A stretch of DNA of 64,000 nt, taken from NCBI GenBank assembly GCA_016179105.1, contig JACOSB010000049.1, forward strand, positions 1 to 64,000, given 5' to 3'. Under the pieces are notes generated by a model. That model was given only the letters and a program-made list of their open reading frames with translations. It did not search any database and had not been told where the DNA came from. Within the stretch, counting starts at the first letter, position 1; every line of letters begins with the position of its first letter. A program made the translations under genes and the position numbers. Shown in pieces: positions 2,997-54,442 of the stretch. This DNA comes from Candidatus Acetothermia bacterium (GTDB lineage Bacteria; Bipolaricaulota; Bipolaricaulia; RBG-16-55-9; DRXL01).

Positions 2997-4145
2997 ATGC
3001 CACACAGAATTCTCCAGCCTACCCAAGCCAGCTCATGGCGCCGGATCGTTGTTCTTGGTCTTGTCTTAGCCAGCATACTCACACTGACTGCCAGCTTCAG
3101 TGGAGCCAAGCCAGTCAAGCAGATAAATGCAGCGCTCGCTGGGAATAGCCCCCGAGAGCTCAGAGTGCCCCAAGATTTCCCGACGATCCAAAAAGCCGTC
3201 GAGGCCGCTCAACCCGGCGATCTCATCACGATCGCCGAAGGCGTCTATCGCGAGTATGTGACTATCACCAAACCACTCACGCTTCAGACGGATCGCTCCA
3301 ATTATGTCTTGATTGTGAATCCGCCCGACTTTAAGCCGCGATCGACGGTCTTGATCTGCAATGCTCAGGGTGTCGTCCTCAGCGGCTTGAAAGTCACGCA
3401 CAACGCGATCCCACCCTGGGCGGCCATCGCAGTTGAAGCGGGCCCACCGGGGTCGTTGACCGCCATGACCTTGAAGCAGGTCCACGCATTCGGAGCCCAC
3501 GGGGGCGGGATCCGCATGGGATTTGCCACGCTGGAAGACGAGCTTCCCCGTGAATGCCGGCCTTCCGGCTCACGGGGTCGAGTCGATGTGACGATCAGCG
3601 ATTCGCTGCTGGATGGAAATCCCTGGGCGGGCATCTATGTCGAGGGAGGTATCGCGCCGGAATCCACCCTCACCGTCGAGAATAGCTCCATCGTACGCAA
3701 CGGTATGGGCATCGGATCGCTCTCCGGAGGGGCACGACTCGCAGGCTTGACCGTGCAGCACAGCATGATTGCAGAGAACAAGAATGTCGGCGGAGGCTTG
3801 GCCAGCCTGGGCGCCCTGCGTGTCGAAAAACTCATCTTGCAGGATAACGCGATCATTCGCAATTCAAGCGGTGTGTATGTGTCCGCCGGTAGTGCTGAGC
3901 TTCAGCGTAACTTGATCTGGCAGAATGAGGGAGTAGGGGTTCTGATCGATGCGCCGGCATTTCGGCCATCAATCTTCGATTTGCGTGACAACATCATCCG
4001 AGAAAATGTCGGTTGTGGAGTGCAACTGCAGATCATTCCGAACGTGATCCCGCGGGTGACCGGCAGCAACAACGAGATTGCAGGGAACCAAGCGGGCGAC
4101 TTATGCCCGGCGGACTTTGCGTGGCCGGAGGGGTTCAAGAAATAA
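2997..4145 (+). CDS. Secreted right-handed parallel beta-helix protein
   Basis: 382 residues. The N-terminal signal peptide has its hydrophobic core at about residues 17-34 (VVLGLVLASILTLTASF). Next comes a DUF1565/NosD-like opening (PQDFPTIQKAVEAAQPGDLITIAEGVYRE), the usual start of pectin-lyase-fold proteins, then irregular beta-helix coils with Asn-rich turns. It ends CPADFAWPEGFKK, related to the PTGFGGGK end of the gene at 244-1930, so the two are distant paralogs. A TATAAT lies at 2952-2957 with no clear -35. Likely an extracellular binding or adhesion protein. No catalytic residues were recognised. Confidence 0.85.
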   Translation: MPHRILQPTQASSWRRIVVLGLVLASILTLTASFSGAKPVKQINAALAGNSPRELRVPQDFPTIQKAVEAAQPGDLITIAEGVYREYVTITKPLTLQTDRSNYVLIVNPPDFKPRSTVLICNAQGVVLSGLKVTHNAIPPWAAIAVEAGPPGSLTAMTLKQVHAFGAHGGGIRMGFATLEDELPRECRPSGSRGRVDVTISDSLLDGNPWAGIYVEGGIAPESTLTVENSSIVRNGMGIGSLSGGARLAGLTVQHSMIAENKNVGGGLASLGALRVEKLILQDNAIIRNSSGVYVSAGSAELQRNLIWQNEGVGVLIDAPAFRPSIFDLRDNIIRENVGCGVQLQIIPNVIPRVTGSNNEIAGNQAGDLCPADFAWPEGFKK

Positions 4146-8961: not shown

Positions 8962-11050
8962 TTTTCGGTTCCATTGCTGCGCTCTGGCCTTCGACGACGA
9001 TCTTGGAGAGATCGCCCAGCGTAAAGAAGAGCGCGACTAATTTATTGAGAAAGCCCAAGCGATTCTGGCGGAGCTCGCGGTCTGGAGCCATGACTAAGAC
9101 TGCATCGAAGTACGTATCGATGGGCGCTTTCAGTTTAAGCAGTTGCTCGATGATTCCAGCATAATCTTCGTTCGGAGCGAGCTTCGCGATCTGGCTCTCG
9201 GCTTTTAAATAGGCGCGCCAGAGATCGCGTTCGACTTCATCTTTGAAGAGTTGCGAATCGAATTCTCTGAGGGAAGAGTGCCCTTGCGTGATGTTGCGAG
9301 CGCGAGAAAAACCAATCACAAGCTCCGTGAATTCTTTCTGTCCGCGAATCTTTTCCAAACTTCTCACCTTGCGTAAGACGCGAGCAGAGTTGCCATCGCG
9401 TGTTGCGAGCACGGCGTTCAGAATATCGTAGGGGACGTTGTACTCTTGCAGCAAGATTTGATAGAGACGCTCGCTGAAAAATTCTTCGACTATCTCAAAG
9501 CCCTTGTGCTTGCCCAAGAAGCTGTACATTTCTTCTGTGTCTCGCGTGAGCTGGAAGAAGTCGATATTCAATTGTTTTTCGAGCGCGATCTTGATGACGC
9601 CGTTCGCTTTTCTTCTCAAGCCAAACGGATCACGAGAGCCAGTCGGCGCTTCACCAGTCAAGAGCAGGCTGACGATCGTGTCGAGCTTGTCAGCTAGACT
9701 GACGGCTGTGCCCACAGCACTTTCTGGAATCGGGTCGCCCGCATTCTTCGGAAGATGATGCTCGCGAATCCCTTGAGCGACAGCCGAAGGCTCTCGGTCA
9801 AGCGTCGCGTAAATGCCCCCGACGATGCCCTCTAAGTCAGGGAATTCACCGACCATCGAAGTCACTAAATCGGCCTTACATAGGAAGGCCGTCTTGTCGA
9901 TCTCGGGCAATTGCCCGAAACCCGCACGCTTTCCAATTTCGACGGCCCAGCGACGGGTGCGCTCGACTTTGTCCCAGATCGTGCCCAATTTTTCTTGGTA
10001 GACCACCGAGCGTAAATCTTTGGCAAAATCAGAAAGTTTTCTCTTACGATCGTTCTCGAAGAAGAAGCGTGCGTCAAAGAGGCGCGCCTTCACGATGCGC
10101 TCGTAACCGGCTTTGATTGTGCCATCTGTGTCTTCGGGACCATCGCGGAAGCCGACGAAGTACGGCAATGCTTGGTCGCCCGCGACGAACGGAACAAATT
10201 TTTGGTGCTCGATAAGTGTAGAGGCCAAAACTTCCTTGGGCAGACTCAGATACTCTTGCGGGAATTTTCCCAAGACTGCCGTTGGATGTTCCATTTGATT
10301 AGCAATCTCTTCGAGTAATGACTCCGGCGCTGTGTGTTTGGCTTTGAACTGAGCCGTGTGCTGGAGCAAAGCATCTTTGACGATCCGCAAGCACTTTTCT
10401 TGATCATAGATGACACCGTTCGCTTCGAGTTTTTCAAAATATTCTACAATAGTTTTGACAGGAATTTTACGCTGACCGAAGAAACGATTGCCCTGGGTTT
10501 CGGGAGCTGATTCAAGCCGACCGAGCGTAAACTTAATTGACTCTTCGCCGTACAGCCCGAGCAGCCAGCGAATCGGGCGGATGAATCTTAATCCCGAATC
10601 ATCCCAGCGCATCGTCTCGGGCAATGAGATCTTTTTTATCAGTGCTGGAAGAAGTTCAGTCAGAAGTTCGGGCGTGCGCTTGCCCTTCACTAATTCCTTG
10701 GCGTAAAGATACTCGCCTTCGTCTGTTTTCTTAACAATGAGATCAGAGACAGAAAGGCCTTTGCTGCGCGCGAAGCCCTCGGCAGCTTTGGTCGGATGAC
10801 CCTGGGTGTCAAAGGCAGCTTTCTTCGCCGGCCCCTTCACTTCGCGCTCGATGTCGGGCTGCTGCTCCGAGAGATTTTGCGCTAGAACCGAGAGCCGGCG
10901 CGGGCCGTAGTAAGCTTTGACACTTTCGAACTCCAAGCGATTTTCTCGGAACAGCTCTTGAGCGAGTGTAGCGAGTTGTTGGCCTAATTCAGGCACGACT
11001 TTTGGAGGAATCTCTTCGACACCAATCTCTAACAGAAAATCTCGACTCAT
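8942..11050 (-). CDS. glyS: Glycyl-tRNA synthetase beta subunit
   Basis: 702 residues from ATG 11050 (MSRDFLLEIGVEEIPPKVV), the characteristic GlyS opening; GAGGAA precedes it, while an ATG 21 bases earlier lacks support. Later landmarks are ETMRWDDSGLRFIRPIRWLLGL (split here as ETMRWDDSG and RFIRPIRWLLGL), GASxxE-type HD-domain segments and the C-terminal DALR-like anticodon-binding part. With GlyQ it forms the alpha2beta2 enzyme that charges tRNA-Gly in the cytoplasm. It follows glyQ by 32 bases on the same strand. Length is normal for the family. Confidence 0.97.
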   Translation of the reverse strand: MSRDFLLEIGVEEIPPKVVPELGQQLATLAQELFRENRLEFESVKAYYGPRRLSVLAQNLSEQQPDIEREVKGPAKKAAFDTQGHPTKAAEGFARSKGLSVSDLIVKKTDEGEYLYAKELVKGKRTPELLTELLPALIKKISLPETMRWDDSGLRFIRPIRWLLGLYGEESIKFTLGRLESAPETQGNRFFGQRKIPVKTIVEYFEKLEANGVIYDQEKCLRIVKDALLQHTAQFKAKHTAPESLLEEIANQMEHPTAVLGKFPQEYLSLPKEVLASTLIEHQKFVPFVAGDQALPYFVGFRDGPEDTDGTIKAGYERIVKARLFDARFFFENDRKRKLSDFAKDLRSVVYQEKLGTIWDKVERTRRWAVEIGKRAGFGQLPEIDKTAFLCKADLVTSMVGEFPDLEGIVGGIYATLDREPSAVAQGIREHHLPKNAGDPIPESAVGTAVSLADKLDTIVSLLLTGEAPTGSRDPFGLRRKANGVIKIALEKQLNIDFFQLTRDTEEMYSFLGKHKGFEIVEEFFSERLYQILLQEYNVPYDILNAVLATRDGNSARVLRKVRSLEKIRGQKEFTELVIGFSRARNITQGHSSLREFDSQLFKDEVERDLWRAYLKAESQIAKLAPNEDYAGIIEQLLKLKAPIDTYFDAVLVMAPDRELRQNRLGFLNKLVALFFTLGDLSKIVVEGQSAAMEPKNAPRKS

Positions 11051-35207: not shown

Positions 35208-35302
35208 GAATCACGGAAAACACGGAAACCCCACGGAAAGCACAGAAGAAAGTCGAGCCGTTTTCCGTGTACTCCGTGGAACTTCAGTGCCTTCTGTGAT
35301 TC
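35208..35302. repeat. Imperfect inverted repeat of CACGGAAA type
   Basis: GAATCACGGAAAACACGG... and the inverse ...CTTCTGTGATTC are the ends of a ~95-base element with many CACGGAAA/TTCCGTG units. It lies in the gap between hyuA and the sigma-linked locus, like the GCCAAGG element at 14662. Probably a non-coding palindromic repeat; no transposase is visible. Confidence 0.6.
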
Positions 35303-35483: not shown

Positions 35484-35509
35484 GTCAGACTCACCCCCTT
35501 CCAAGCGAC
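35484..35509 (+). promoter_or_regulatory. Element E1: GTCAGA-N15-GCGAC
   Basis: GTCAGACT (35484) and GCGAC (35505-35509), 21 bases start to start. The same spacing recurs at 35811, 36053, 37085 and 39025. It resembles a -35/-10 pair of an ECF-type sigma factor. It leads, after a ~45-base leader with GAGGAGGAG, into the 82-residue protein at 35554. Confidence 0.65.
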
Positions 35510-35553
35510 CCAGAGGGTAACAACAGCCAAATACACAGAGGAGGAGATCTCAA

Positions 35554-35802
35554 ATGACGACCCAGAAAAACTGCAGCAACGGAAACAGTGGGATCAAATG
35601 GATCCACGTTAAAGCGAGTGGGCTCTTTGGCTTCCAGACAGTAGTCATCTGGGCAGGCGAGACGGTCGATCAGTTTAAACAGCTACTCGGTCTGGATGCT
35701 CAGACGATGGTCACCGTCCCGACGGCGGGGCTGCCGTTACCCGCTGAGGCCAATCTCTTCGACTACGTCAAGGACTTTGACACCGTGCTGCTTCACGCGT
35801 AG
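35554..35802 (+). CDS. Small protein, possible ubiquitin-like (beta-grasp) fold
   Basis: 82 residues with a good ribosome site (GAGGAGGAG). After a Ser/Asn N-terminus, the pattern WIHVKASG..GFQTVVIWAGETV-DQFKQLLG-...MVTVPTAGLPL..FDYVKDFDTVLLHA alternates strands with one central helix, as in beta-grasp/ubiquitin-like proteins. The fold is inferred from pattern only, and there is no C-terminal Gly-Gly. No signal peptide. It is the first gene behind an E-type promoter. Function unknown. Confidence 0.65.
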   Translation: MTTQKNCSNGNSGIKWIHVKASGLFGFQTVVIWAGETVDQFKQLLGLDAQTMVTVPTAGLPLPAEANLFDYVKDFDTVLLHA

Positions 35803-35810
35803 ACGAACTT

Positions 35811-35836
35811 GTCAGACTTGCCTCGTTTCGGGCGAC
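35811..35836 (+). promoter_or_regulatory. Element E2: GTCAGA-N15-GCGAC
   Basis: GTCAGACT (35811) and GCGAC (35832-35836), followed by TAAGGAAAGTGACGAAACTCAAA-type leader (quoted in part: GAAACTCAAA) that is shared with E3 and E4. Begins 8 bases after the previous stop. AAAAGGAGGAG precedes the next ATG at 35878. Confidence 0.65.
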
Positions 35837-35877
35837 TAAGGAAAGTGACGAAACTCAAAACTTGAAAAGGAGGAGTC

Positions 35878-36081
35878 ATGTACGAGCCATTCACACAAGA
35901 CCTGGGGCGGGAACACTACCGCGAGCTATTGAGGGAGCGGAGGAACGTAAATATCGCAAAAGGTCGATGGGAACTGCGAAAGAGTTTGAGAAGTTTGTTA
36001 AGCGGCATGATCGACAAGCTTTCCCAAGGCTTTGCTTACCTTGCCTCTCTTCGTCAGATTCGTCCCAATTCAGGCGACTAA
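35878..36081 (+). CDS. Small basic helical protein of unknown function
   Basis: 67 residues, ATG 35878 after AAAGGAGGAG. Arg/Leu/Glu-rich (EHYRELLRERR, GRWELRKSLRSLL), probably one or two helices, without signal peptide or known domain. The stop codon TAA is the TAA of the next E-type element (GCGACTAAG), so gene and promoter overlap. Support is the ribosome site and the E2 promoter; no homolog was recognised. Confidence 0.5.
   Translation: MYEPFTQDLGREHYRELLRERRNVNIAKGRWELRKSLRSLLSGMIDKLSQGFAYLASLRQIRPNSGD
36053..36078 (+). promoter_or_regulatory. Element E3: GTCAGA-N15-GCGAC
   Basis: GTCAGATT (36053) and GCGAC (36074-36078), then a leader containing GAAACCCAAA and GGAGGTGGCGCA, nearly the same as the leader after E4. 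Drives the exported protein at 36188. Confidence 0.65.
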
Positions 36082-36187
36082 GAAAGTAATGAAACCCAAA
36101 TCAATGGAGGTGGCGCACATGATGCGCAACAGAATCAGAGCAGAAGAAGGCAAGAGTTTCACAAATATCCCACAGGAGGGGATCACA

Positions 36188-37006
36188 ATGATGTTCAGTC
36201 AATTCAGTCGTCGGATCGGCATAGCGATAGTGGTCGGTGTCATCGTTGGATTAGCGATCGGGGCTGTCTCGGCATCTGTCGCCCTAGCACAATCCGGACC
36301 CTTCTCGTTAAGTCCAGCGAGTGGCGTCACGACGCCCGGGGGCAGGCTGGACTTCGATATGATCGCCAACCCTAACGACCCGGCCGTCTATAGCATGATT
36401 TTGGTTGATGATGTCCAGCCCACTGTTCTTCCCTACGCACCCACCATCACAGTAATTTATCAAGTAGTTGTCGGGGCCGCCATTGTCCCCTCTGTGACTG
36501 TGGCCCCAGGGGTTTGGAATCGTGGCACAATATATGTGGGCACTGGTACACCCACCGGCGTCTACACCATCACGATGGCGATTTTTGTTCAAGGTAACAA
36601 TGGACAAGCGCAGTACTTTGTGAACTACACGCTACAAGTGAGCGGTGGCACTCCTAGTTCAGGCCCTGGCCCCTTGCCGCAGCCAGGTACCGGAATAGCA
36701 TTAAGGGCTTATATAGCAGCCGATCGCGGTTGTCAGGAACAGGGTCAGAACCCTGTTTACCGTAACGGTGATCCAATCACTGTCCAGATCCGCGTCGACG
36801 GAGTTCCGCAAGCTTTCATCACGATTCTAGATATCGTCGAAGGTTTAAGGCCGCAGGTGATCGTGCAGCAAGTGATTCAAGGAAACCGAAATCTGGAAAT
36901 GCGGGGCCAAATCTCACCTCCCTTCGGGCGTGAGACGCTCCGGATGACAGTAGAAGCCGGAGGACAGACGACTGTCAGCCAGTGCACATTCACCAGCACG
37001 CCGTAA
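36188..37006 (+). CDS. Secreted beta-rich protein of the E-regulon
   Basis: 272 residues from ATG 36188 after AGGAGGGG. Signal peptide with core IGIAIVVGVIVGLAIGAVSA. The mature part is beta-rich, first like an Ig-type domain (SGPFSLSPASGVTTPGGRLDFDMI), then a Pro/Gly linker near 150 and a second domain with one Cys at each end (RGCQEQG, QCTFTSTP). A second in-frame start, ATG ATG at 36119 with its own GGAGG, would add exactly 23 residues (MMRNRIRAEEGK...). The paralog at 37220 has the same 23-codon extension. Function unknown. Alone behind E3; a terminator follows. Confidence 0.75.
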   Translation: MMFSQFSRRIGIAIVVGVIVGLAIGAVSASVALAQSGPFSLSPASGVTTPGGRLDFDMIANPNDPAVYSMILVDDVQPTVLPYAPTITVIYQVVVGAAIVPSVTVAPGVWNRGTIYVGTGTPTGVYTITMAIFVQGNNGQAQYFVNYTLQVSGGTPSSGPGPLPQPGTGIALRAYIAADRGCQEQGQNPVYRNGDPITVQIRVDGVPQAFITILDIVEGLRPQVIVQQVIQGNRNLEMRGQISPPFGRETLRMTVEAGGQTTVSQCTFTSTP

Positions 37007-37026
37007 ACGGGTCGTCGGAGCCGCAT

Positions 37027-37064
37027 GGAGAGGAGACTGAGTTCGTCCAGCCAGTTTCCTCTCC
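37027..37064 (+). terminator. Hairpin terminator
   Basis: GGAGAGGA and TCCTCTCC, extended inward by ACTG/CAGT, form a ~12-pair stem; GGAGGCTTTTAT follows with a short T-run. Separates the 36188 gene from promoter E4. Confidence 0.55.
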
Positions 37065-37084
37065 GGAGGCTTTTATCGACTCCT

Positions 37085-37110
37085 GTCAGACTTGCTCCGT
37101 GTCACGCGAC
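37085..37110 (+). promoter_or_regulatory. Element E4: GTCAGA-N15-GCGAC
   Basis: GTCAGACT (37085) and GCGAC (37106-37110), then leader GAAACTCAAAT..GTGGAGGTGGCGCAG shared with E3. Drives the exported protein at 37220. Confidence 0.65.
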
Positions 37111-37219
37111 TAGGAGAGTAGCGAAACTCAAATAAGTGGAGGTGGCGCAGATGATGCGCGACAGAATCGAAGCAAAAGAGATTAGTAAACACACAGATCT
37201 CATCAAGGAGGAGATCAAG

Positions 37220-38080
37220 ATGACGAGTCGCAAATGGGGTTGTAAATGGAGTTTGGCGTTCAAGGCGTTGGCAGTTGGCTTGGTAACCTTGGCAATCTTG
37301 GGGGCAGTGCCGGCGATAACGGTTCTGGCAGATGGCTCTCATAATATGTGTCAAGGGCAGCCAGGACCGAATGGCGGGACCCAATGTTCTACAGGCAGCC
37401 TCATCATCGGCATCTCAGCGGTGGTCGTGAATGCAACGGACTGTACTACCAGGGCTGCCATCCTCCCTGAGAAGCTGACCTTCGATCTGGTCTTTAGGGA
37501 AGGAGCAAATGCACCATACAGTGCGCACGATCTGAAGGCGATCATTGTAAATGCCATAGGCTATGTGCCAGTCACAATCACTAGTTTCGTGCAGATGCAA
37601 CTCAATCTCTTCTTCTTTGTCCTGAATATCATCTTTGCGGGTAACCAGTGCTTGATGCCAGGGGGTGGACCAGGCCCTGTTCCCGTGGGAGCTTATGAAG
37701 ACTGCGATTGGAAACTCCAGTATTCTAACGACGGTGGGCTAACTTGGTTAGATTTCACAGACCCGCTGAACCCTCCCAGGGGTCAGCTGAACAAATTTTT
37801 CAAATTCCGAGTCATTGCTGTCATTGCTACAGGTAAAAACAAAGGCAGTCTGTGTACCGCAGATTACACATGGCAGGTAACATGGCCAGCCCCACCGCCT
37901 GGCACCCCCAGGACGACTCCTGCAGGCGCGCCTACCGGAAACGAGACTGGAAAACCAGTCGACGTGCAGGTGCCCGGCACTCTGACACCCGGTGGTACAG
38001 CCAAGCTCGAAATCTGGACCAAAGACAAAAACAATGATACGCAACTAGCTGTCGATGGGACGTTTACTATCATAAAGTAA
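37220..38080 (+). CDS. Secreted protein of the E-regulon, 5' paralog of the preceding gene
   Basis: 286 residues from ATG 37220 after AAGGAGGAG. Signal peptide core WSLAFKALAVGLVTLAILGAV. The mature protein contains several Cys (CQGQ, TQCS, DCTT, NQCL, EDCDW, SLCTADY) and a Thr/Pro-rich segment near 220-245 before a beta-rich end (GTAKLEIWTKDKNND). An in-frame ATG ATG at 37151 with its own GGAGG would add 23 residues (MMRDRIEAKE...), matching the preceding gene. The promoter and leader are duplicated between the two while the mature parts differ. Function unknown; extracytoplasmic. Confidence 0.75.
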   Translation: MTSRKWGCKWSLAFKALAVGLVTLAILGAVPAITVLADGSHNMCQGQPGPNGGTQCSTGSLIIGISAVVVNATDCTTRAAILPEKLTFDLVFREGANAPYSAHDLKAIIVNAIGYVPVTITSFVQMQLNLFFFVLNIIFAGNQCLMPGGGPGPVPVGAYEDCDWKLQYSNDGGLTWLDFTDPLNPPRGQLNKFFKFRVIAVIATGKNKGSLCTADYTWQVTWPAPPPGTPRTTPAGAPTGNETGKPVDVQVPGTLTPGGTAKLEIWTKDKNNDTQLAVDGTFTIIK

Positions 38081-38131
38081 AGGAAGCAACCAAAGGTGGC
38101 TATCAGGTGCTGCAGCAATTGATCACGTTGC

Positions 38132-38169
38132 GAGTATGGTGGGCGACCTTGGAGCTGCTCACCATACTC
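38132..38169 (+). terminator. Hairpin after the 37220 gene
   Basis: GAGTATGGTG and CACCATACTC, 10 perfect pairs around an 18-base loop, followed by CCTTTG. Weak T-run; probably a terminator. Confidence 0.5.
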
Positions 38170-38344
38170 CCTTTGACAGGCGAGATAAACAAGGCAAACG
38201 ATTCAGCGAGGCTTTAGTGCGATGCTCTCTGCAGGTGATTGCAGAGGCTCTCGCCAGCTCAGTGTAGAAGGCAGTATACTATAGTCTGTAGAAGTGGCAG
38301 GATCTAGCGATGCACAATGCCCGATCTCAGAGGAGGGGATCATC

Positions 38345-39016
38345 ATGGCGGCTGGTAAGCGGGTCATACAGACAATGGGATTGTTGTTGCTGAGTGTGAT
38401 GCTCTTGACAGGTCGTGGAGGGTATGGGCAGACGCAGCCTAATACTCTGTTTTCTCCCCCTATATCTATCAACGCGTTTGGCTCTTGCCCCGACGCGAGC
38501 GGAGACGCCTTCGCGAAATCGAACGGGAGACCGGTGATGGTGCCAGCGAGTCTGGATTTGCGCCGGGCACAACTGCGCCGCGAGCGCGATGACTTCGGCA
38601 CCGAACTCCTGAAGGTAGAGTTCCAGGTCTTCGGTCCCCTGCCCCCGACACTGAACGATGCTGGCGATGTCTATTTCATGGTAATTGACTTGGACCGTCA
38701 AAAGAACACGGGAGACAGCGATGGCATCTTTGGATTGGGCAAGGATCTGGCGGTATCGGTTGTCTACAGTCGCGACCGCCTCGTGCAAAGCCAGTTTCTG
38801 CTCTGGCCGGCGGCGGGTGGCGATGACCCGGCCGTGTTTGACGTCACCCCGCGCATCGACCCTGAGCGACATATTCTCAGTGTACAAATACCTGTATCTA
38901 TATTGGATGCCCAATACAGTGCCCTGCGAGGAAGCCCGATCCCGCTCGACGATCCCGAGTGGGGGGCCTACACAGAAAAAGAAGCGAGTCTAAAGACCGA
39001 CCCGCAAACAGCCTGA
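38345..39016 (+). CDS. Secreted protein with possible CBM9/DOMON-like domain
   Basis: 223 residues from ATG 38345 after AGGAGGGG. Signal peptide MAAGKRVIQTMGLLLLSVML. The mature part has LLKVEFQVFGPLP, GDVYFMVIDLDRQKNTGD and FDVTPRIDPERHILSVQIP, like beta-sandwich ligand-binding domains of the CBM9/DOMON type also suggested in the gene at 5597. No E-type element was found before it; TATACT at 38275 is a possible -10. It sits between the E4 and E5 units. Function unknown. Confidence 0.7.
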   Translation: MAAGKRVIQTMGLLLLSVMLLTGRGGYGQTQPNTLFSPPISINAFGSCPDASGDAFAKSNGRPVMVPASLDLRRAQLRRERDDFGTELLKVEFQVFGPLPPTLNDAGDVYFMVIDLDRQKNTGDSDGIFGLGKDLAVSVVYSRDRLVQSQFLLWPAAGGDDPAVFDVTPRIDPERHILSVQIPVSILDAQYSALRGSPIPLDDPEWGAYTEKEASLKTDPQTA

Positions 39017-39024
39017 GACAACTT

Positions 39025-39050
39025 GTCAGACTCTCATCCTTCCCAGCGAC
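39025..39050 (+). promoter_or_regulatory. Element E5: GTCAGA-N15-GCGAC, before the sigma-like gene
   Basis: GTCAGACT (39025) and GCGAC (39046-39050), 18 bases before ATG 39069, leaving a very short leader. Being directly ahead of the sigma-like gene, it suggests autoactivation and links the factor to E1-E4. Confidence 0.65.
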
Positions 39051-39068
39051 ATGGTACAATAGAAGCCG

Positions 39069-40301
39069 ATGGAGCGCTTACTGGAAGACATTGCCGCCCA
39101 CGGCTGGGCGAAAGAAAGCCGTGAAGCATTCGTGCGGCACTACGACCGCGAGATCGGCGAGACGATCCTTCATCTCTTAGCCGAGTATGGGCTGATCGGA
39201 GATCGCCGAGCTCTGCGTAGTTTAAAGAGCTACATCGAGAGTCGGCTGCGAGAGCAGCGAGCTGGACCGGAGCATTCGCTCTGGGAGATCGTCGAGGAAG
39301 TATATATGAGCATCTATCGCGAAGTCTTCGAGAAGAAGCTCGTTCAAGACTACGTGACCGGTACCCGTGACGGCACAGTGAAATCTGACTTTGTCGGCTA
39401 TCTGCGCGGGGCTGTGCGCCAGCGCTTACTTGACGCCCTAGGAGCCGGAGAAAAATCTGAGAAAGAACTCTTCGATGCGATCATTGACAGCAAGAAGCCC
39501 GACACGATTCGCAAATATGTTTCAGAAGCGAAGGGACGCTACAGTGAAAAGACGCGAAGTTATCTGCTCTGTAGTCAATCTCTTTCCAGCTCATCCCTTC
39601 GAGCCGGCACGGATTATTTCTTTGAACAATTTATCACCCAAAGATATCCGGCGTTGCGCGCGAATCTAAAACCTGGTGATTCAGTGCTTTATCGTCTCTT
39701 GGAAGCGTTCATAGCAGAGAACTATAAGCAAGCCACGTTCAGTGCCGACGTTCTTTCTTATGTTGGGAATATCCCAGCGAGTCGGCCCCATCCACACCGC
39801 TGGGCCACTCTTGCATACCATGAAGATGATCCAGAGTCATCGGACGAAGAAGAGAAACTCGAGCGCGCCGGGGCAATCGCCAAAACCAAGGACTGGGCCC
39901 AAGATGAACGGCTGCGCTGGTGGGATGGGATGCTTCGCTGTTGCTTGCCCCAAACGGCTGATCTTTCAGAGCTAACACGACTGATCGCAGGACTGCAGGA
40001 CCAAGCCCAGCGCGATACGAAACTCTGTCTGGCGTGTGCAGCGCTTAAGCAAGAAAGCGCTCTTGACCAAAAGGATGATCTTCGCATGTTCCTTGTCTAT
40101 TATCTGAGTAATTTTGGCGCTCCCGCCGAGCCTGACAAGCCAATCCAAGTGACCAAAGATTCTCTCTGTTTAGAGATGATTCGAGGGCGGGCGCTCTCGT
40201 GGGAGCAAATTTTCAAAATTTTTGGTCGGGAGTGCAACCCGACGCGCATCAAGAACAAAGTGCGTCAAAAATACGAATCGCTGCAAGGGAGCCTATCATG
40301 A
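39069..40301 (+). CDS. Divergent ECF-like RNA polymerase sigma factor (putative)
   Basis: 410 residues, about twice a usual ECF factor. Residues ~80-130 (SLWEIVEEVYMSIYREVF, SDFVGYLRGAVRQRLLDAL) resemble sigma region 2 (core binding, -10). The last ~40 (GRALSWEQIFKIFGREC, PTRIKNKVRQKYESL) resemble a region 4 helix-turn-helix. The middle ~200 residues are unassigned. The assignment rests on this pattern plus context: ATGA overlap with an anti-sigma-like gene, and an upstream element that recurs before nearby genes with ECF-promoter geometry. It could instead be another type of DNA-binding regulator. No clear ribosome site is seen. Confidence 0.6.
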   Translation: MERLLEDIAAHGWAKESREAFVRHYDREIGETILHLLAEYGLIGDRRALRSLKSYIESRLREQRAGPEHSLWEIVEEVYMSIYREVFEKKLVQDYVTGTRDGTVKSDFVGYLRGAVRQRLLDALGAGEKSEKELFDAIIDSKKPDTIRKYVSEAKGRYSEKTRSYLLCSQSLSSSSLRAGTDYFFEQFITQRYPALRANLKPGDSVLYRLLEAFIAENYKQATFSADVLSYVGNIPASRPHPHRWATLAYHEDDPESSDEEEKLERAGAIAKTKDWAQDERLRWWDGMLRCCLPQTADLSELTRLIAGLQDQAQRDTKLCLACAALKQESALDQKDDLRMFLVYYLSNFGAPAEPDKPIQVTKDSLCLEMIRGRALSWEQIFKIFGRECNPTRIKNKVRQKYESLQGSLS

Positions 40302-40843
40302 GTCAGGACGATCGCTTCATTGAAGAAATTTTCCGTGGTGAGCTGGAGATGGAGCATCGCGAGCATCCGAGCTTTTCAGTGCTCTGGCAGTACGTGTCCA
40401 GACGACTGGATTCGGAATTGTCCCAAAAAATTTCCTTACACATCGCTTCGTGTAGCAAGTGCGTGGCAGATCTTGAAGAGATCAAGAGTGAACAAGCATC
40501 GCTGCTGACCGAAGGATCACGTCTCTTGCCGGACCCACTGGAGAGTTTTCCGGAGAAAACGACGTACGCGGCGCGCGGTCGCGCGGCGCTAGCCCGGTGG
40601 AGCGAGCTCTTCTTTGGACGAAAAGTAGTGCTCCGGCACGTTCTGATCTATGCTATGGGGAGTTTGGTCTTGTTTGGGGCCAACGCGGTGATCAATAAGC
40701 TCACGGAACCACCGCCCAATCCGATCATCTCGCCCGAGCCTTATACGCCAAACTGGTGGGCACTATGGCCCGTGCTCGTCTGGGGCGGGCTGCTCGCGTT
40801 GCATATTGTCTTTATAGCGATCTGGTACTGGCGGCGTCGCTGA
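40298..40843 (+). CDS. Membrane anti-sigma factor with HxxxCxxC zinc motif
   Basis: 181 residues, ATG 40298 overlapping the sigma-like stop by 4 bases. The N-terminal domain has H48-xxx-C52-xx-C55 (LHIASCSKC), the zinc-binding anti-sigma (ZAS/zf-HC2) motif that clamps ECF factors. Two membrane helices follow (VLIYAMGSLVLFGANAVI and WWALWPVLVWGGLLALHIVF) with a Pro-rich loop between them that faces the outside, then a basic RRR end. Family logic: it holds the sigma factor at the membrane until a signal or proteolysis releases it. It is followed after 16 bases by a secreted metalloprotease gene. Confidence 0.8.
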   Translation: MSQDDRFIEEIFRGELEMEHREHPSFSVLWQYVSRRLDSELSQKISLHIASCSKCVADLEEIKSEQASLLTEGSRLLPDPLESFPEKTTYAARGRAALARWSELFFGRKVVLRHVLIYAMGSLVLFGANAVINKLTEPPPNPIISPEPYTPNWWALWPVLVWGGLLALHIVFIAIWYWRRR

Positions 40844-40859
40844 GAAAGGAGTGTTCTCA

Positions 40860-42479
40860 ATGAGCAAATTGCTTCGCAGTGCCAAGTGGCTGTTGCTTCT
40901 GACGGTCGGGTTGGTCTTTACCGTGTGGGCGGCCGAGTGGCGTGGCTTTTGGGGAGGGCAGTCAATCTATCCGGAGACGGGGAGTTTTGAGCGTGGGCGC
41001 TGGGAATCGGTGCCGGTCTGTTATCAGCTCGTGAATAGCTCTACGCATCCGTGGACGCCCGCAGAACTGGCCGTGGCACGAGCAGCCATCGCTGAATGGA
41101 ATCGCGCTTCGAGTGCACTCGCCAATCGACTCTTCGAAAGCGGCAGCTCTGCTTGTGGCAACAAATCCGATATTCTCCTCCGCTGGGAGGGCAACGCGAG
41201 CTTCTTCAAAAACTGGGGTGACCCCAACGGTGACCGCGTTCCACTCAACTTGACCGGTGCGATCGGCGCTTATATACCGGCGAGAGTCGCACCGCCGATT
41301 GGGATCGAACCCTGTCTTGATCTCCAATCGGCACGGTTTATCGATCGCTGCAGCATCGTTTTTCTCAACATAGACAATCACAGAGGCTGGTTCGTGGACG
41401 CTACTCCCGACAAAGATGAGGAGTTTGAACCAACGACAGTGACTCTATGCGGGAATCAGAGAACGGTACTGAAAGCAAAGAAGAGTGGCCCCGCCGATGG
41501 CAAGCAAGACTTGTACACGGTAATCTTGCATGAGTTCGGCCATGCGTTGGGCCTAGTCCACTCGGGTGGCTGCGACAAAAACCCGCTCACATTCCAAACA
41601 CAGGACGACGATGGCGCCGTGATGTGGGAAGGCTCGATAGAGACTCGCCGCGATTTGACCGATCTCATTGGATATAACGAGCGTCGCCATTTCGGCCCGA
41701 TCGATAACGCCTCGCTCCAAGCCACCTATAGTCTGACGCGAAGCGTCACGATAACAGCGGTAATCGATTTCAACGGCGGCATAACGGTCCCCGTCCCCGG
41801 CTTGGCCGGTACAGCCCTCACGCTCGGTTTTGTCTCGGAACGAGCGCTCAACGGCACGCATAATCCGGCCTTTGGAAGCTGCAGCGTGACATTTTCTGGG
41901 AAAGGATCGGCTGCCCTGTCGACAGACAGACAAGGCCAGGGCCCGTTCACATCCATCCAAGACATCTCGAGCATCGAGATCTGCACGGGATGCACGGGCA
42001 ACTCTATGGCATCCCTCGATGCGCAAAATAAGAGCGAGTTGAGTGCTCAAGCTGACCATCTCCAACCCCAAAAGATCTTCTTGAGTCGGTATGAGAGCAC
42101 CGGCCCGAACGCGTTCAAGGTCGTCAACGAAGGGGGCAGGACTGTCATCAAATCACCGCTCTCGGACAATTCGGCCTGGCTGATCGAGCTGATCTCACGG
42201 GATGTGCGACTCAAACTCAGTCAGAAAACGCAACTGCTGGCAAATCTTGGGATCTTCAAAGGCAAGATGAAAAATCTGGTCGAGAGATCTAACAGCAGAC
42301 CTGAGGTCGCTGAGGCGAAAGTGACTCAACCTGTAGGCGACGGCTTGGGCGAAGTCGAGCTCACTGCGAAAGCCACGGGTGAAACGACCATGGTTTTTGA
42401 GTACGAGTTCTATAGCCATATCACGGGTGAGTTCTTAGGCCTCGCGCGTATCCAGACGAAGGTCACCGTCGAGAATTGA
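40860..42479 (+). CDS. Secreted matrixin-type zinc metalloprotease
   Basis: 539 residues from ATG 40860 (AAGGAG upstream; the GTG 9 bases earlier lacks spacing). Signal peptide WLLLLTVGLVFTVWA. The metzincin motif HEFGHALGLVH (H224, E225, H228, H234) and a Met-turn in GAVMWEG (M255) are present. The N-terminal part (VPVCYQLVNSSTHPWTP, ARAAIAEWNRAS) fits the matrixin/astacin-like fold, with long insertions. The C-terminal ~250 residues are beta-rich with no recognised domain. Likely digests or matures extracellular proteins. Third gene of the sigma/anti-sigma operon, which suggests a role in signalling or in processing regulon products. Confidence 0.85.
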   Translation: MSKLLRSAKWLLLLTVGLVFTVWAAEWRGFWGGQSIYPETGSFERGRWESVPVCYQLVNSSTHPWTPAELAVARAAIAEWNRASSALANRLFESGSSACGNKSDILLRWEGNASFFKNWGDPNGDRVPLNLTGAIGAYIPARVAPPIGIEPCLDLQSARFIDRCSIVFLNIDNHRGWFVDATPDKDEEFEPTTVTLCGNQRTVLKAKKSGPADGKQDLYTVILHEFGHALGLVHSGGCDKNPLTFQTQDDDGAVMWEGSIETRRDLTDLIGYNERRHFGPIDNASLQATYSLTRSVTITAVIDFNGGITVPVPGLAGTALTLGFVSERALNGTHNPAFGSCSVTFSGKGSAALSTDRQGQGPFTSIQDISSIEICTGCTGNSMASLDAQNKSELSAQADHLQPQKIFLSRYESTGPNAFKVVNEGGRTVIKSPLSDNSAWLIELISRDVRLKLSQKTQLLANLGIFKGKMKNLVERSNSRPEVAEAKVTQPVGDGLGEVELTAKATGETTMVFEYEFYSHITGEFLGLARIQTKVTVEN

Positions 42480-51313: not shown

Positions 51314-51899
51314 CTACTTAACCTCCTTAGAGCTAATCAGCGAACAAGCCATATTAAACGTGTCACGTTTGCGATTTCCGTGCTCTCTACAATGTTCTCT
51401 TGGTTTGAACGATCAATCCAACTGCGCTAACACCACCTCCAGGCTGAGTTTGTATCAACTGGAATGATTCCGGCCTTTTGCCCAATTGTACAAACTCTGA
51501 GGGCGAAAATCCACTCTTTTGTATTCTACATCTGTAGTGTTTTCGTAGGCGGCTATCTACCCCTCTAACTGAATCTTGGCCCATTGTACAACTCGATTTA
51601 ACTTTTCTGACGCCTCTAGGAGGAATTTTGGGGAAAATGGTCTTCATATGCGCAATTTTGATTTGAAATGCATTCCATAAAGTGAAGGCGCTCGGTCGGT
51701 ACTCCTGGCCGGGAGCCGCGTTCGTCAGAAAAGTGCTTGGGAAATTTATCATTGTACCCTGTAACGTCCTGTTTCTGACAATTTACGAGCCTGCAGAGTA
51801 CCATTATAGTGCGGGATGCAGGTTTCTTCGGCTTGTCGCAGTGGAGCCATTACGCTAAAAAAACACCCATAACAACTGCGCTTTTAGCATTTCCCACCC
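51314..51899. other. Gene-free divergent intergenic region
   Basis: About 590 bases between divergent genes. A 121-codon minus-strand ORF (51387-51752) has no ribosome site or recognisable pattern and is taken as chance. No repeat, tRNA or strong hairpin was seen. Control regions of both flanking genes must lie here. Confidence 0.5.
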
Positions 51900-51928
51900 T
51901 TGACCCTCGGAAGCACCCATGCTATAAT
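51900..51928 (+). promoter_or_regulatory. Sigma-70-type promoter
   Basis: TTGACC (51900-51905), 17-base spacer, TATAAT (51923-51928), about 115 bases before the start of the Ala-rich protein at 52043. Confidence 0.7.
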
Positions 51929-52042
51929 GCAAACAATAAAAAAGGGAGGTGGTCTCCCTCGGTACGCACCAATGAACCGGAGAAGTTCCATCGAATCGAC
52001 GGACCTCAAACAGTAGGCATCAGACAAGGAGGAATAACCGTG

Positions 52043-53152
52043 ATGCGTCAGTTACTCGTCTTATCTTTAGGTTTCGTATTGCTGGGAGCCCTGGTCCAAC
52101 CCGCCCTTGCTCATGATATTAATGAATTACAGGCGATCGCCTGCGGTGCCAAAGCAAACCCCGAAAGAGATTTCCGCGCCGCCGCCGCTCAAGTGCTGGC
52201 CGATCTGTTTGCCGCTACCGTCTTGGATGCGAAGGTTTTGCCTACCTCCACGCTGAATGCAGCTGCGACCGACGCGAACCCCGAATGCCGCGCTGCGGCG
52301 GTCGACGCCCTTGCTCAGCGCATCCTCGTCGAACAAGCGCCGCTCAACACCGCGAAGACCCAGACATTGCACGACGGTGTGAAAAACGCTGCTAGCTTTG
52401 AGCTCGGTCTCGCTCAATCCGAAGTGGTCGTCGAGATCGTGCGCAACGGTTTTATCAATCGTGGTGCCCAAGAAGCAATTCGCCGTAGTGAGTCTGTCGC
52501 CAGCGGGGGAAAAGAGAACATTCTCGGCGTCAATTTGGATGGCTCGGTTCCCGCCGTGCGCGCGGCGGTCAGCCGTTATTTCTTGACCGGATTTTATCGT
52601 GCTTTTGGAAGCCTCGTCTTTGGCGATGCCAACGCGACGTGTGATGCGCTACGCGCTCGTGCTCGCGAGGGTGCTTCGCCCGAGGTCCGCACTGCTGCAG
52701 CGGCTGCGTATGTCTCCGGCGTCGTCGTCGATCGCAAAGAAACGAAATGCGTCGCGGGAGACGGGCTCGTCACGGCCACACTCAGGGGCAGTGCCGCCGT
52801 CCAGGCGGCTGCCGTCAATGCGGCTGCTGGTGTGATGGCGGGGGGCTCGTTGACCGATGTCGCGCTGATCAACTTAGCGCTCGATCGTTCCGGGCGCAGC
52901 GCTCGCGGTGCGGGCATTACGGATGAAGACTCGACGACTTCGTCCTTCCGGCTGGCGGTCGGCCGAGCGCTCGGGCTTCGCTGGGCCAAGCGCGCCGAGA
53001 AAGAGAATTTGCTCGCTGACGAAGGCGTGGTCCTCTTGCCCGGCATCTTGCCCTATAATTTGAAAGTCTACGTCGCAGTCTTCTCGGTCGATTCTCCGGA
53101 AGCATCGGCCGCAGCCGTGGCTCCGCTGGTTGTACTCTTCTCAAAAGACTAG
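52043..53152 (+). CDS. Secreted Ala-rich helical protein, uncharacterised family (copy 1)
   Basis: 369 residues, ATG 52043 after AAGGAGG (GTG 52040 is possible). Signal peptide LLVLSLGFVLLGALVQPALA. The body is very Ala-rich and helical, in repeats like NPECRAAAVDALAQRI and VRTAAAAAYVSGVVVDRKETKC, which recall HEAT-type repeats. Conserved with the next gene: LQAIACG, SFELGL, VRNGFINRGA, GGKENILGVNLDG and FGDANATC. Two or more Cys positions are conserved. Function unknown. It lies between two peptide-transporter modules on the opposite strand and has its own promoter and terminator. Confidence 0.8.
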   Translation: MRQLLVLSLGFVLLGALVQPALAHDINELQAIACGAKANPERDFRAAAAQVLADLFAATVLDAKVLPTSTLNAAATDANPECRAAAVDALAQRILVEQAPLNTAKTQTLHDGVKNAASFELGLAQSEVVVEIVRNGFINRGAQEAIRRSESVASGGKENILGVNLDGSVPAVRAAVSRYFLTGFYRAFGSLVFGDANATCDALRARAREGASPEVRTAAAAAYVSGVVVDRKETKCVAGDGLVTATLRGSAAVQAAAVNAAAGVMAGGSLTDVALINLALDRSGRSARGAGITDEDSTTSSFRLAVGRALGLRWAKRAEKENLLADEGVVLLPGILPYNLKVYVAVFSVDSPEASAAAVAPLVVLFSKD

Positions 53153-53255: not shown

Positions 53256-53326
53256 AACATTGGCGTATTGGCAAGTTGCGGTGTTCGGCACCCGCGGTGT
53301 CAACAAAAAATAAAGGAGGAAGTATT

Positions 53327-54442
53327 ATGCGTCTAGTCGTTCGAGGGTTCGTCGTGCTGGTGGTTGGGTTGAGTTTATTGGGAGCCTGGGTAGAGCCGAG
53401 TTGGGCCGCTCCCAAGACAGCCGCTGAGTTGCAGGCCATTGCCTGCGGAAGTAATGCGGATAAGTTGAATGCAGCCCGTGCTGCCGCGGGTCAGGCGCTG
53501 GGTGAGGCTTTGGCGGGGCTCGTTCTGGATGCAGCGGCGCTGCCCACAGCCACGCTCAATGCCTTGATTGCCGACGTCAACCCGGAGTGTCGCGCGGCGG
53601 CCGTCGATGCTCTCCAGCAACGCGTGCTGACCGAGGGCGCTCCGTTCAATACGGCGAAGATTCAGGCCCTGGTCGATTCAGCCAAGAGCGCAGCCAGCTT
53701 TGAGCTCGGGCTGGTGCGCGCGGCGGTCGCGGTGGAATTGGTTCGCAACGGCTTCATCAACCGTGGTGCGCCGGAAGCGCTCCGCCGTGCGGAGGCTGTC
53801 GCTGGCGGGGGCAAAGAGAACATTCTAGGCGTGAACTTGGATGGCGCTGACGCGGCCGTTCGCGCGGCGGTCAGTCGCTTCTTCTTGACTGGTTTTTATC
53901 GTTTCTTCGGCGGCTTGGTCTTCGGAGATGCCAACGCGACGTGCGCTGCATTGCGCACGCGCACCCTCGGTGGGCTTCCAGCTGAAGTTCAAACGGCGGC
54001 AGCGGCAGCCTATGTGTCCGGCGTCGTGATCGACCGCAAGGAGACCAAGTGTGTGGCGGGTGATGCGCTCGTGGTGGCGACGCTCAAGGGCAGTCCAGCG
54101 GTCCAGAGCGCCGCGGTCAAAGCGGCAGCGGACGTCTTGGCCGGCTTGACTCGACTGAATGCGAATGCTCTGACCGTGCTCGCCATCGGTAGTACAGAAG
54201 GCCGTGACGTGCAGGGAGCTCTCCTGGTCTGCACAGACCCCAATGACGAGACCACTTGCGAGAAGCTGACCAGCGTGGCCTTCCGTCTGGCGGCCGCGCG
54301 CGCGTTGGGTCTGCGTCTGGTCGCTGCCGGCAACGTGAACGAATTTGTCGTGCGCGTTCTCTCGCAAGCCAACCAGGATGCGGGGCTCAAGGAATTCCCA
54401 ACCTTTGCGGTCCCGGCGCTGGCGTACTTGTACTCAAACTAA
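53327..54442 (+). CDS. Secreted Ala-rich helical protein, uncharacterised family (copy 2)
   Basis: 371 residues, ATG 53327 after AAGGAGGA. Signal peptide VVLVVGLSLLGAWVEPSWA. Closely parallels the preceding gene along its length (NPECRAAAVDALQQRVL, VRAAVSRFFLTGFYRFFG, YVSGVVIDRKETKCVAGD). The C-terminal third diverges and has an added Cys pair (LLVCTDPNDETTCEK). Tandem duplication is clear. HEAT-like helical repeats are suggested, without a recognised domain. Ends in a strong terminator at 54473. Confidence 0.8.
   Translation: MRLVVRGFVVLVVGLSLLGAWVEPSWAAPKTAAELQAIACGSNADKLNAARAAAGQALGEALAGLVLDAAALPTATLNALIADVNPECRAAAVDALQQRVLTEGAPFNTAKIQALVDSAKSAASFELGLVRAAVAVELVRNGFINRGAPEALRRAEAVAGGGKENILGVNLDGADAAVRAAVSRFFLTGFYRFFGGLVFGDANATCAALRTRTLGGLPAEVQTAAAAAYVSGVVIDRKETKCVAGDALVVATLKGSPAVQSAAVKAAADVLAGLTRLNANALTVLAIGSTEGRDVQGALLVCTDPNDETTCEKLTSVAFRLAAARALGLRLVAAGNVNEFVVRVLSQANQDAGLKEFPTFAVPALAYLYSN

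Follow-up and report, generated by a model that had tools for sequence, protein, structure and literature searches.

Which protein reads a short, promoter-like element that recurs five times within 3.6 kb of a bacterial genome, and what would it switch on? The question is raised by a stretch of 64,000 nucleotides (nt), hereafter the window, from Candidatus Acetothermia bacterium (contig JACOSB010000049.1, positions 1 to 64,000 of the forward strand), a member of the little-studied phylum Bipolaricaulota whose draft genome amounts to 3.71 Mb in 166 contigs and is 93% complete. The last copy of the element, GTCAGAYT-N13-GCGAC, stands ahead of an operon for a sigma-like protein (gene start at 39069), an anti-sigma-like protein with a zinc motif and two transmembrane (TM) segments, and a metzincin. 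From the sequence, on which the whole analysis is based, the window probably encodes an autoregulated sigma-like/anti-sigma regulon, in which a modular and divergent factor acts at the five elements and at one further site on another contig (C81:27757). The support comes from the elements themselves, their placement, the order of the genes, conservation in a relative, and changes in the elements that go along with the type of factor. No described system of such content in Bipolaricaulota was found in a literature search that covered few subscription journals, nor was any system combining these features, most subscription journals lying outside the search.

The five elements lie on the plus strand at the following positions, with the constant spacing that had been noticed in the sequence-only reading of this DNA:

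35484..35509, plus strand: element 1, GTCAGACT-N13-GCGAC, exact match
35811..35836, plus strand: element 2, exact match
36053..36078, plus strand: element 3, exact match, within the 3' end of the open reading frame (ORF) 35878-36081
37085..37110, plus strand: element 4, exact match
39025..39050, plus strand: element 5, exact match, 18 nt ahead of the sigma-like gene, with a counterpart at position 3822 of the related contig L006

Whole-genome scans of both strands, with the reversed pattern as control, returned exactly these five copies of GTCAGAYT-N13-GCGAC, each ahead of an ORF, and none of the reversed pattern; the window count of five compares with 0.00 in 100 dinucleotide shuffles. When the spacer was freed to 8-22 nt, GTCAGA-N-GCGAC was found 26 times genome-wide versus 41 times for the reversed control, the sole cluster being that on contig C33 at N15. 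Fixing GTCAGA-N15-GCGAC alone gave eight matches genome-wide, three beyond the five. One of these, C81:27757, is probably a sixth real site: an exported-protein gene starts about 107 nt further on, and both this gene and its leader resemble those that follow element 3; the other two look like chance. The five elements do form a dedicated promoter-like set, as had been proposed, but the regulon is not wholly self-contained, with at least one probable site on another contig. Each element precedes an ORF, though the third lies within the last 29 bases of ORF 35878-36081 and is thus not strictly intergenic. A longer leader is common to elements 2, 3 and 4, to the site at L006:71 and, in part, to C81, so that some duplication has happened; elements 1 and 5 differ in their flanks and have only the element itself in common.

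The operon that follows element 5 is laid out as follows:

39055..39060, plus strand: TACAAT with a preceding TG (extended -10-like), 8 nt before the sigma-like start, seen by eye
39069..40301, plus strand: sigma-like protein of 410 amino acids (aa), with an N-domain (about 1-135), a middle part and a C-domain (about 275-410)
40298..40843, plus strand: membrane anti-sigma-like protein of 181 aa, with HxxxCxxC and a two-TM domain, overlapping the sigma-like gene by 4 nt
40860..42479, plus strand: metzincin-type metalloprotease, predicted to be secreted, with HEFGHALGLVH and Pfam Peptidase_M10 over the cut-off, third gene of the operon, 16 nt after the membrane gene

The HxxxCxxC membrane anti-sigma gene overlapping the sigma-like gene was as described earlier, its motif being H48, C52 and C55, and the secreted protease in the operon is of the metzincin type. 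The position of the last element ahead of this operon was likewise confirmed, and the arrangement recurs in relatives at corresponding places. Pfam 2TM and zf-HC2 both score below the cut-off in the 40298 protein; its orthologs pass 2TM, the zf-HC2 cut-off is passed in L038, and H48, C52 and C55 are invariant in six homologs. A TATAAT with TG is seen by eye at the same place in L006 (about 3850-3855, 8-10 nt ahead of the sigma-like start), and this TACAAT/TATAAT could be a second, housekeeping promoter giving basal, possibly leaderless expression.

The closest comparison is with L006, a 4.3-kb contig of a Candidatus Bipolaricaulota genome, which encodes a factor 69% identical to the 39069 protein. 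On it, an exported-protein gene that has the GGAGGTGGCGCAGATGA leader in common with the window follows the exact element (GTCAGACTAGTCTCGTTGCGGGCGAC), and the sigma-like gene follows GTCAGA-N15-GCGAC in the form GTCAGAAACCCTGAGTTTCGGGCGAC, so that both sites visible on this short contig are kept. An S8 protease gene lies directly upstream of the sigma-like gene in L006 and in L038, and a subtilisin-like ORF, identified by eye, in L037; its window counterpart is only a 223-aa protein resembling the N-terminal part.

The 39069 protein had been proposed to be an extracytoplasmic function (ECF) sigma factor. Single-protein and profile searches against Pfam, NCBIfam and PDB gave no sigma match, and an N-domain profile of 14 sequences was compared with 19 genuine ECF sigmas encoded in these genomes. 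The profile aligned in register with ECF region 2 (P 8e-5) at a score of 31.2; none of 200 column shuffles, a control that keeps column composition and is no substitute for structure, exceeded 21.9. Among the in-register pairs are EIVEEVY with EIVQEVF and FVGYLRGAVRQRLLDAL with FVTWLMRIAHYRAIDEL; no match of this profile to region 4 of the 19 ECF sigmas was obtained. The alignment is suggestive, not proof, of a relationship between the N-domain and sigma region 2. The C-domain has no Pfam or PDB match, and its profile matches region 2 no better than shuffles do. An assignment of the C-domain to region 4 was tried and given up: a first ECF set put it where the helix-turn-helix would be expected (P 0.03) and a better set did not. 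As an ECF sigma the protein is not recognisable: it has a region-2 match at profile level only, no Pfam or NCBIfam match, no detectable region 4, and about 140-150 aa between the N- and C-domain. The best reading of the protein appears to be a divergent, modular, sigma-like factor with two separable modules.

Relatives carry these modules in separate genes as well as fused. In a paralog from the window's own genome (L037) and in G002, G004, G006 and G007, an N gene of about 250-300 aa and a C gene of 138 aa, divided by TAATGA or TAATGG, are followed by an anti-sigma gene; in the L045, L081 and L082 family the two genes overlap by 4 nt. Split loci include L037-L040, L044, L045, L081 and L082, with adjacent N and C genes and, where looked at, a zinc motif in the anti-sigma gene. 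The parts are fused in G013, G011 and G076, and G003 and G009 have a compact fused form without the middle part, the compact members L018 and L043 showing a shorter stretch between the domains than the window protein. Readthrough or frameshifting at the in-frame stops of the split relatives was considered and dropped, because N and C, in the same frame around TAATGA/TAATGG, are separate ORFs, and other relatives show the 4-nt overlap. In two split relatives (L038 3823-4275 and L037 10628-11071) a second frame that begins at the ATG of TAATGA overlaps the C-domain gene and stays open for about 150 aa, probably by chance in GC-rich sequence.

Split-relative loci come with an element of their own, GTTAGA-N15-GCYATA, which precedes sigma-like and S8-protease genes and those for laminin-G and other exported proteins, and a free-spacer search placed the clustered GTTAGA/GCYATA sites at N15. 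Four such sites occur in the window's genome, one of them before the gene for a 70-aa protein (G000:C161:5816) sharing 46% identity with the 82-aa protein encoded at 35554..35802; this homolog points to two parallel regulons in one genome with common target types and different elements. In both element types, A and B, the spacer is itself partly conserved ahead of the -10 half (cTTTTGGGc / TTTcgGGC), beyond what a plain -35/-10 pair would need. Mobile-element-like hairpin repeats (GTAGGGGCGAA...TTCGCCCCTAC) lie in the leaders of the L037 sigma-like gene (about 9640-9690) and of one GTTAGA target (L068 after 1530).

The C-domain of the 39069 protein is also common to standalone proteins of about 150 aa, widespread in the order, whose genes in most loci examined are abutted or overlapped by that of an HxxxCxxC membrane protein, with no N-domain gene seen. 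GTCAGA or GTCAGG stands 17 nt before TATAAT in 10 of the 16 standalone operons examined; in two more, both from the window's genome, GTCAGA is followed at the same distance by TAAACT and TACAAT, and four have no GTCAGR-N17 element. In the sense orientation, GTYAGA lies within 120 nt upstream of 18/30 C-domain operons, against 0/30 in antisense. The -35 half (GTYAGA) is thus the property of a wider C-domain family, many members of which lack the N-domain and have a TATAAT -10. The -10 half is TATAAT-like at N17 in standalone systems and GCGACT or GCCATA in N-domain types A and B. Since the standalone C-domain operons have GTCAGR-N17-TATAAT, GTYAGA appears to track the C-domain and the -10 half the N-domain.

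These observations suggest a mechanism in which the -35-like half (GTCAGA, or GTYAGA in the family) would be read by the C-domain and the -10-like half (GCGAC(T), or GCCATA) by the region-2-like N-domain of a factor that would bind RNA polymerase. The 40298 zinc-motif membrane protein would hold the factor inactive at the membrane until a release signal made it let go, and the freed factor would then start transcription at the five elements and C81:27757. The products would be a small conserved protein, exported proteins, the factor's own operon and a secreted metalloprotease. A bolder proposal, somewhat less likely than not, is that the -35 reader is a new domain distinct from sigma-4 and always controlled by a membrane anti-sigma with a zinc motif. 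It would be put to three uses: in the standalone form it would work with the housekeeping sigma (GTCAGA-N17-TATAAT), in the split form as a subunit beside a region-2-like protein (GTTAGA-N15-GCYATA), and in the third form fused to that part (GTCAGA-N15-GCGAC).

Several results weigh against a sigma-like regulon. Neither the 39069 protein, searched against Pfam, NCBIfam and PDB sequences, nor any of 24 family members, searched against Pfam, gave a sigma-domain or any Pfam match, respectively; the C-domain profile fits ECF region 4 no better than shuffled columns do; AlphaFold models built from two N-domain sequences and from one C-domain sequence reached predicted local distance difference test (pLDDT) values of 56 and 48, and Foldseek found no sigma with them. 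The exact hexamer is missing in 12/30 C-domain operons, and in the own-genome paralog L037 the 120 nt next to the start contain a hairpin repeat but no GTYAGA. The undetectable region 4 would suit a rather unlikely alternative, that the 39069 protein binds DNA as an ordinary activator, its C-domain, on GTYAGA at -35, recruiting the housekeeping holoenzyme in the manner of T4 MotA, and that the membrane protein inhibits it. The same kind of membrane partner beside standalone C-domain proteins, which have no N-domain at all, fits this as well, as does the exact N17 distance between GTCAGA and TATAAT at most of their promoters. So does the occurrence of GTCAGA-N15..19-TATAAT 66 times in 21 genomes against once for the reversed pattern. 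The genes that follow are varied by eye, some encoding transporters, exported proteins or a SecY-like protein, and TTGACA-TATAAT promoters, with the one other hexamer counted, are several times commoner; the set may be a regulon, or this lineage's housekeeping sigma may simply accept GTCAGA as a variant -35. The window elements themselves, however, have no TATAAT at N17, and their GCGAC(T) is not expected to be read by a housekeeping sigma; the N-domain has its region-2-like similarity; and appropriation of the MotA type also needs AsiA, which was not seen here, though no search aimed at it was made.

Much less probable is a reading that gives the 39069 protein no role and in which tandem gene duplication has multiplied ordinary housekeeping promoters or the remains of a duplicated leader. 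The longer leader of elements 2, 3, 4, L006:71 and partly C81 would be expected then, and GTCAGA does precede TATAAT at many housekeeping-looking genes of these genomes, but elements 1 and 5 share the element without its flanks, the copy before the sigma-like gene is kept in L006, and related loci keep the spacing while changing both halves together at several unlinked genes. That the 39069 protein acts on the element is drawn from sequence, which leaves a very slight chance that GTCAGA-N15-GCGAC is an operator or RNA-level element of another regulator encoded elsewhere; against this, spacing and placement are promoter-like, and across genera GTYAGA goes with the operons of the C-domain genes themselves. 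An autoregulated sigma-like regulon thus stays the preferred reading.

The remaining genes downstream of the elements are the following:

35554..35802, plus strand: small protein of 82 aa, no signal peptide seen, no PDB match
35878..36081, plus strand: small basic ORF of 67 aa with a strong Shine-Dalgarno (AAAAGGAGGAGT)
36119..37006, plus strand: exported protein, signal peptide by eye from a second start at 36188 (...ASVALAQ)
37151..38080, plus strand: exported protein, signal peptide by eye from a second start at 37220
38345..39016, plus strand: exported protein of 223 aa, by eye like the N-terminal part of the L006 S8 protease

The 82-aa protein is possibly beta-grasp-like, judged by eye only; a ubiquitin-like reading of it found no support among PDB sequences. 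The gene at C81 that resembles 36119-37006 has the same element and leader. The 38345 gene has no element of its own, and its product lacks the S8 catalytic domain. In the leaders after elements 3 and 4 and at C81 (36053-36190, 37085-37220 and L052:1501-1640), a first start codon has its own strong Shine-Dalgarno; it is in frame with the signal-peptide start after elements 3 and 4, and its frame is closed just before that start at C81. The gap upstream of element 1 contains an inverted repeat, CACGGAAAACACGGAAA / TTTCCGTGTACTCCGTG (35212-35278), with 17-nt arms that are 88% complementary. Elsewhere in the window, the adjacent genes at 51809-53152 and 53276-54442 encode similar exported proteins and represent a tandem duplication. 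The same genome also has a 458-aa ORF (in the region of G000:C121:4033-4881; L095, L099) next to a normal sigma70 gene (L093), with the Pfam order sigma70 region 4, 1.2/2, 4, 1.2/2, which reflects either a tandem sigma in permuted order or a faulty assembly.

Should the regulon be real, standard models would have missed a sigma lineage whose promoter specificity is readable from sequence, and poorly known phyla would seem to have more sigma factors than are now counted in them. Recognition of -35 and -10 would then have been recombined in nature as separate genes, and it could be tested directly if one -35 reader is able to change partners, from a dedicated region-2 protein to the housekeeping sigma or back.

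Among known systems, ECF (Group IV) sigma factors with class I zinc anti-sigmas come to mind readily: adjacent sigma-like and membrane anti-sigma genes, an element before the own operon and exported-protein genes, and a 15-nt spacing between short halves are all found here, and the N-domain resembles region 2 at profile level. ECF promoters carry AAC in the -35 and CGT in the -10, whereas the window halves are GTCAGA and GCGAC. The 39069 protein also matches no sigma model, has no detectable region-4 similarity in its C-domain, and places about 140-150 aa between its domains, whereas ECF linkers are under 50 residues (PMC8103513). On account of these differences, it is not classed here with the ECF sigmas, whose way of working it nonetheless appears to share. 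The HxxxCxxC N-terminal domain of the 40298 protein is that of class I zinc anti-sigmas, the first three helices of which bind sigma-4 (PMC7406223), and an anti-sigma acting on the -35 reader alone would fit with this. With Group V sigma factors, which are divergent and resist classification (PMC8103513), the 39069 protein shares that divergence, but its second domain is not recognisable.

A precedent for separate sigma subunits is provided by SigO-RsoA (PMC8103513, PMC10028694), and the region-2-like and -35-reading parts are similarly separate in L037-L040, L044, L045, L081 and L082, where adjacent N and C genes precede a zinc-motif anti-sigma gene wherever this was looked at. Both parts are fused in the window protein, unlike SigO-RsoA, and the likeness is one of arrangement. 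T4 middle promoters retain a TATAAT -10 with another -35, as the standalone C-domain promoters do. MotA/AsiA is accordingly the precedent for replaced -35 recognition with the housekeeping -10 kept (PMC6755090), a resemblance in logic only, as the loci described here have no phage context and a membrane anti-sigma-like partner instead.
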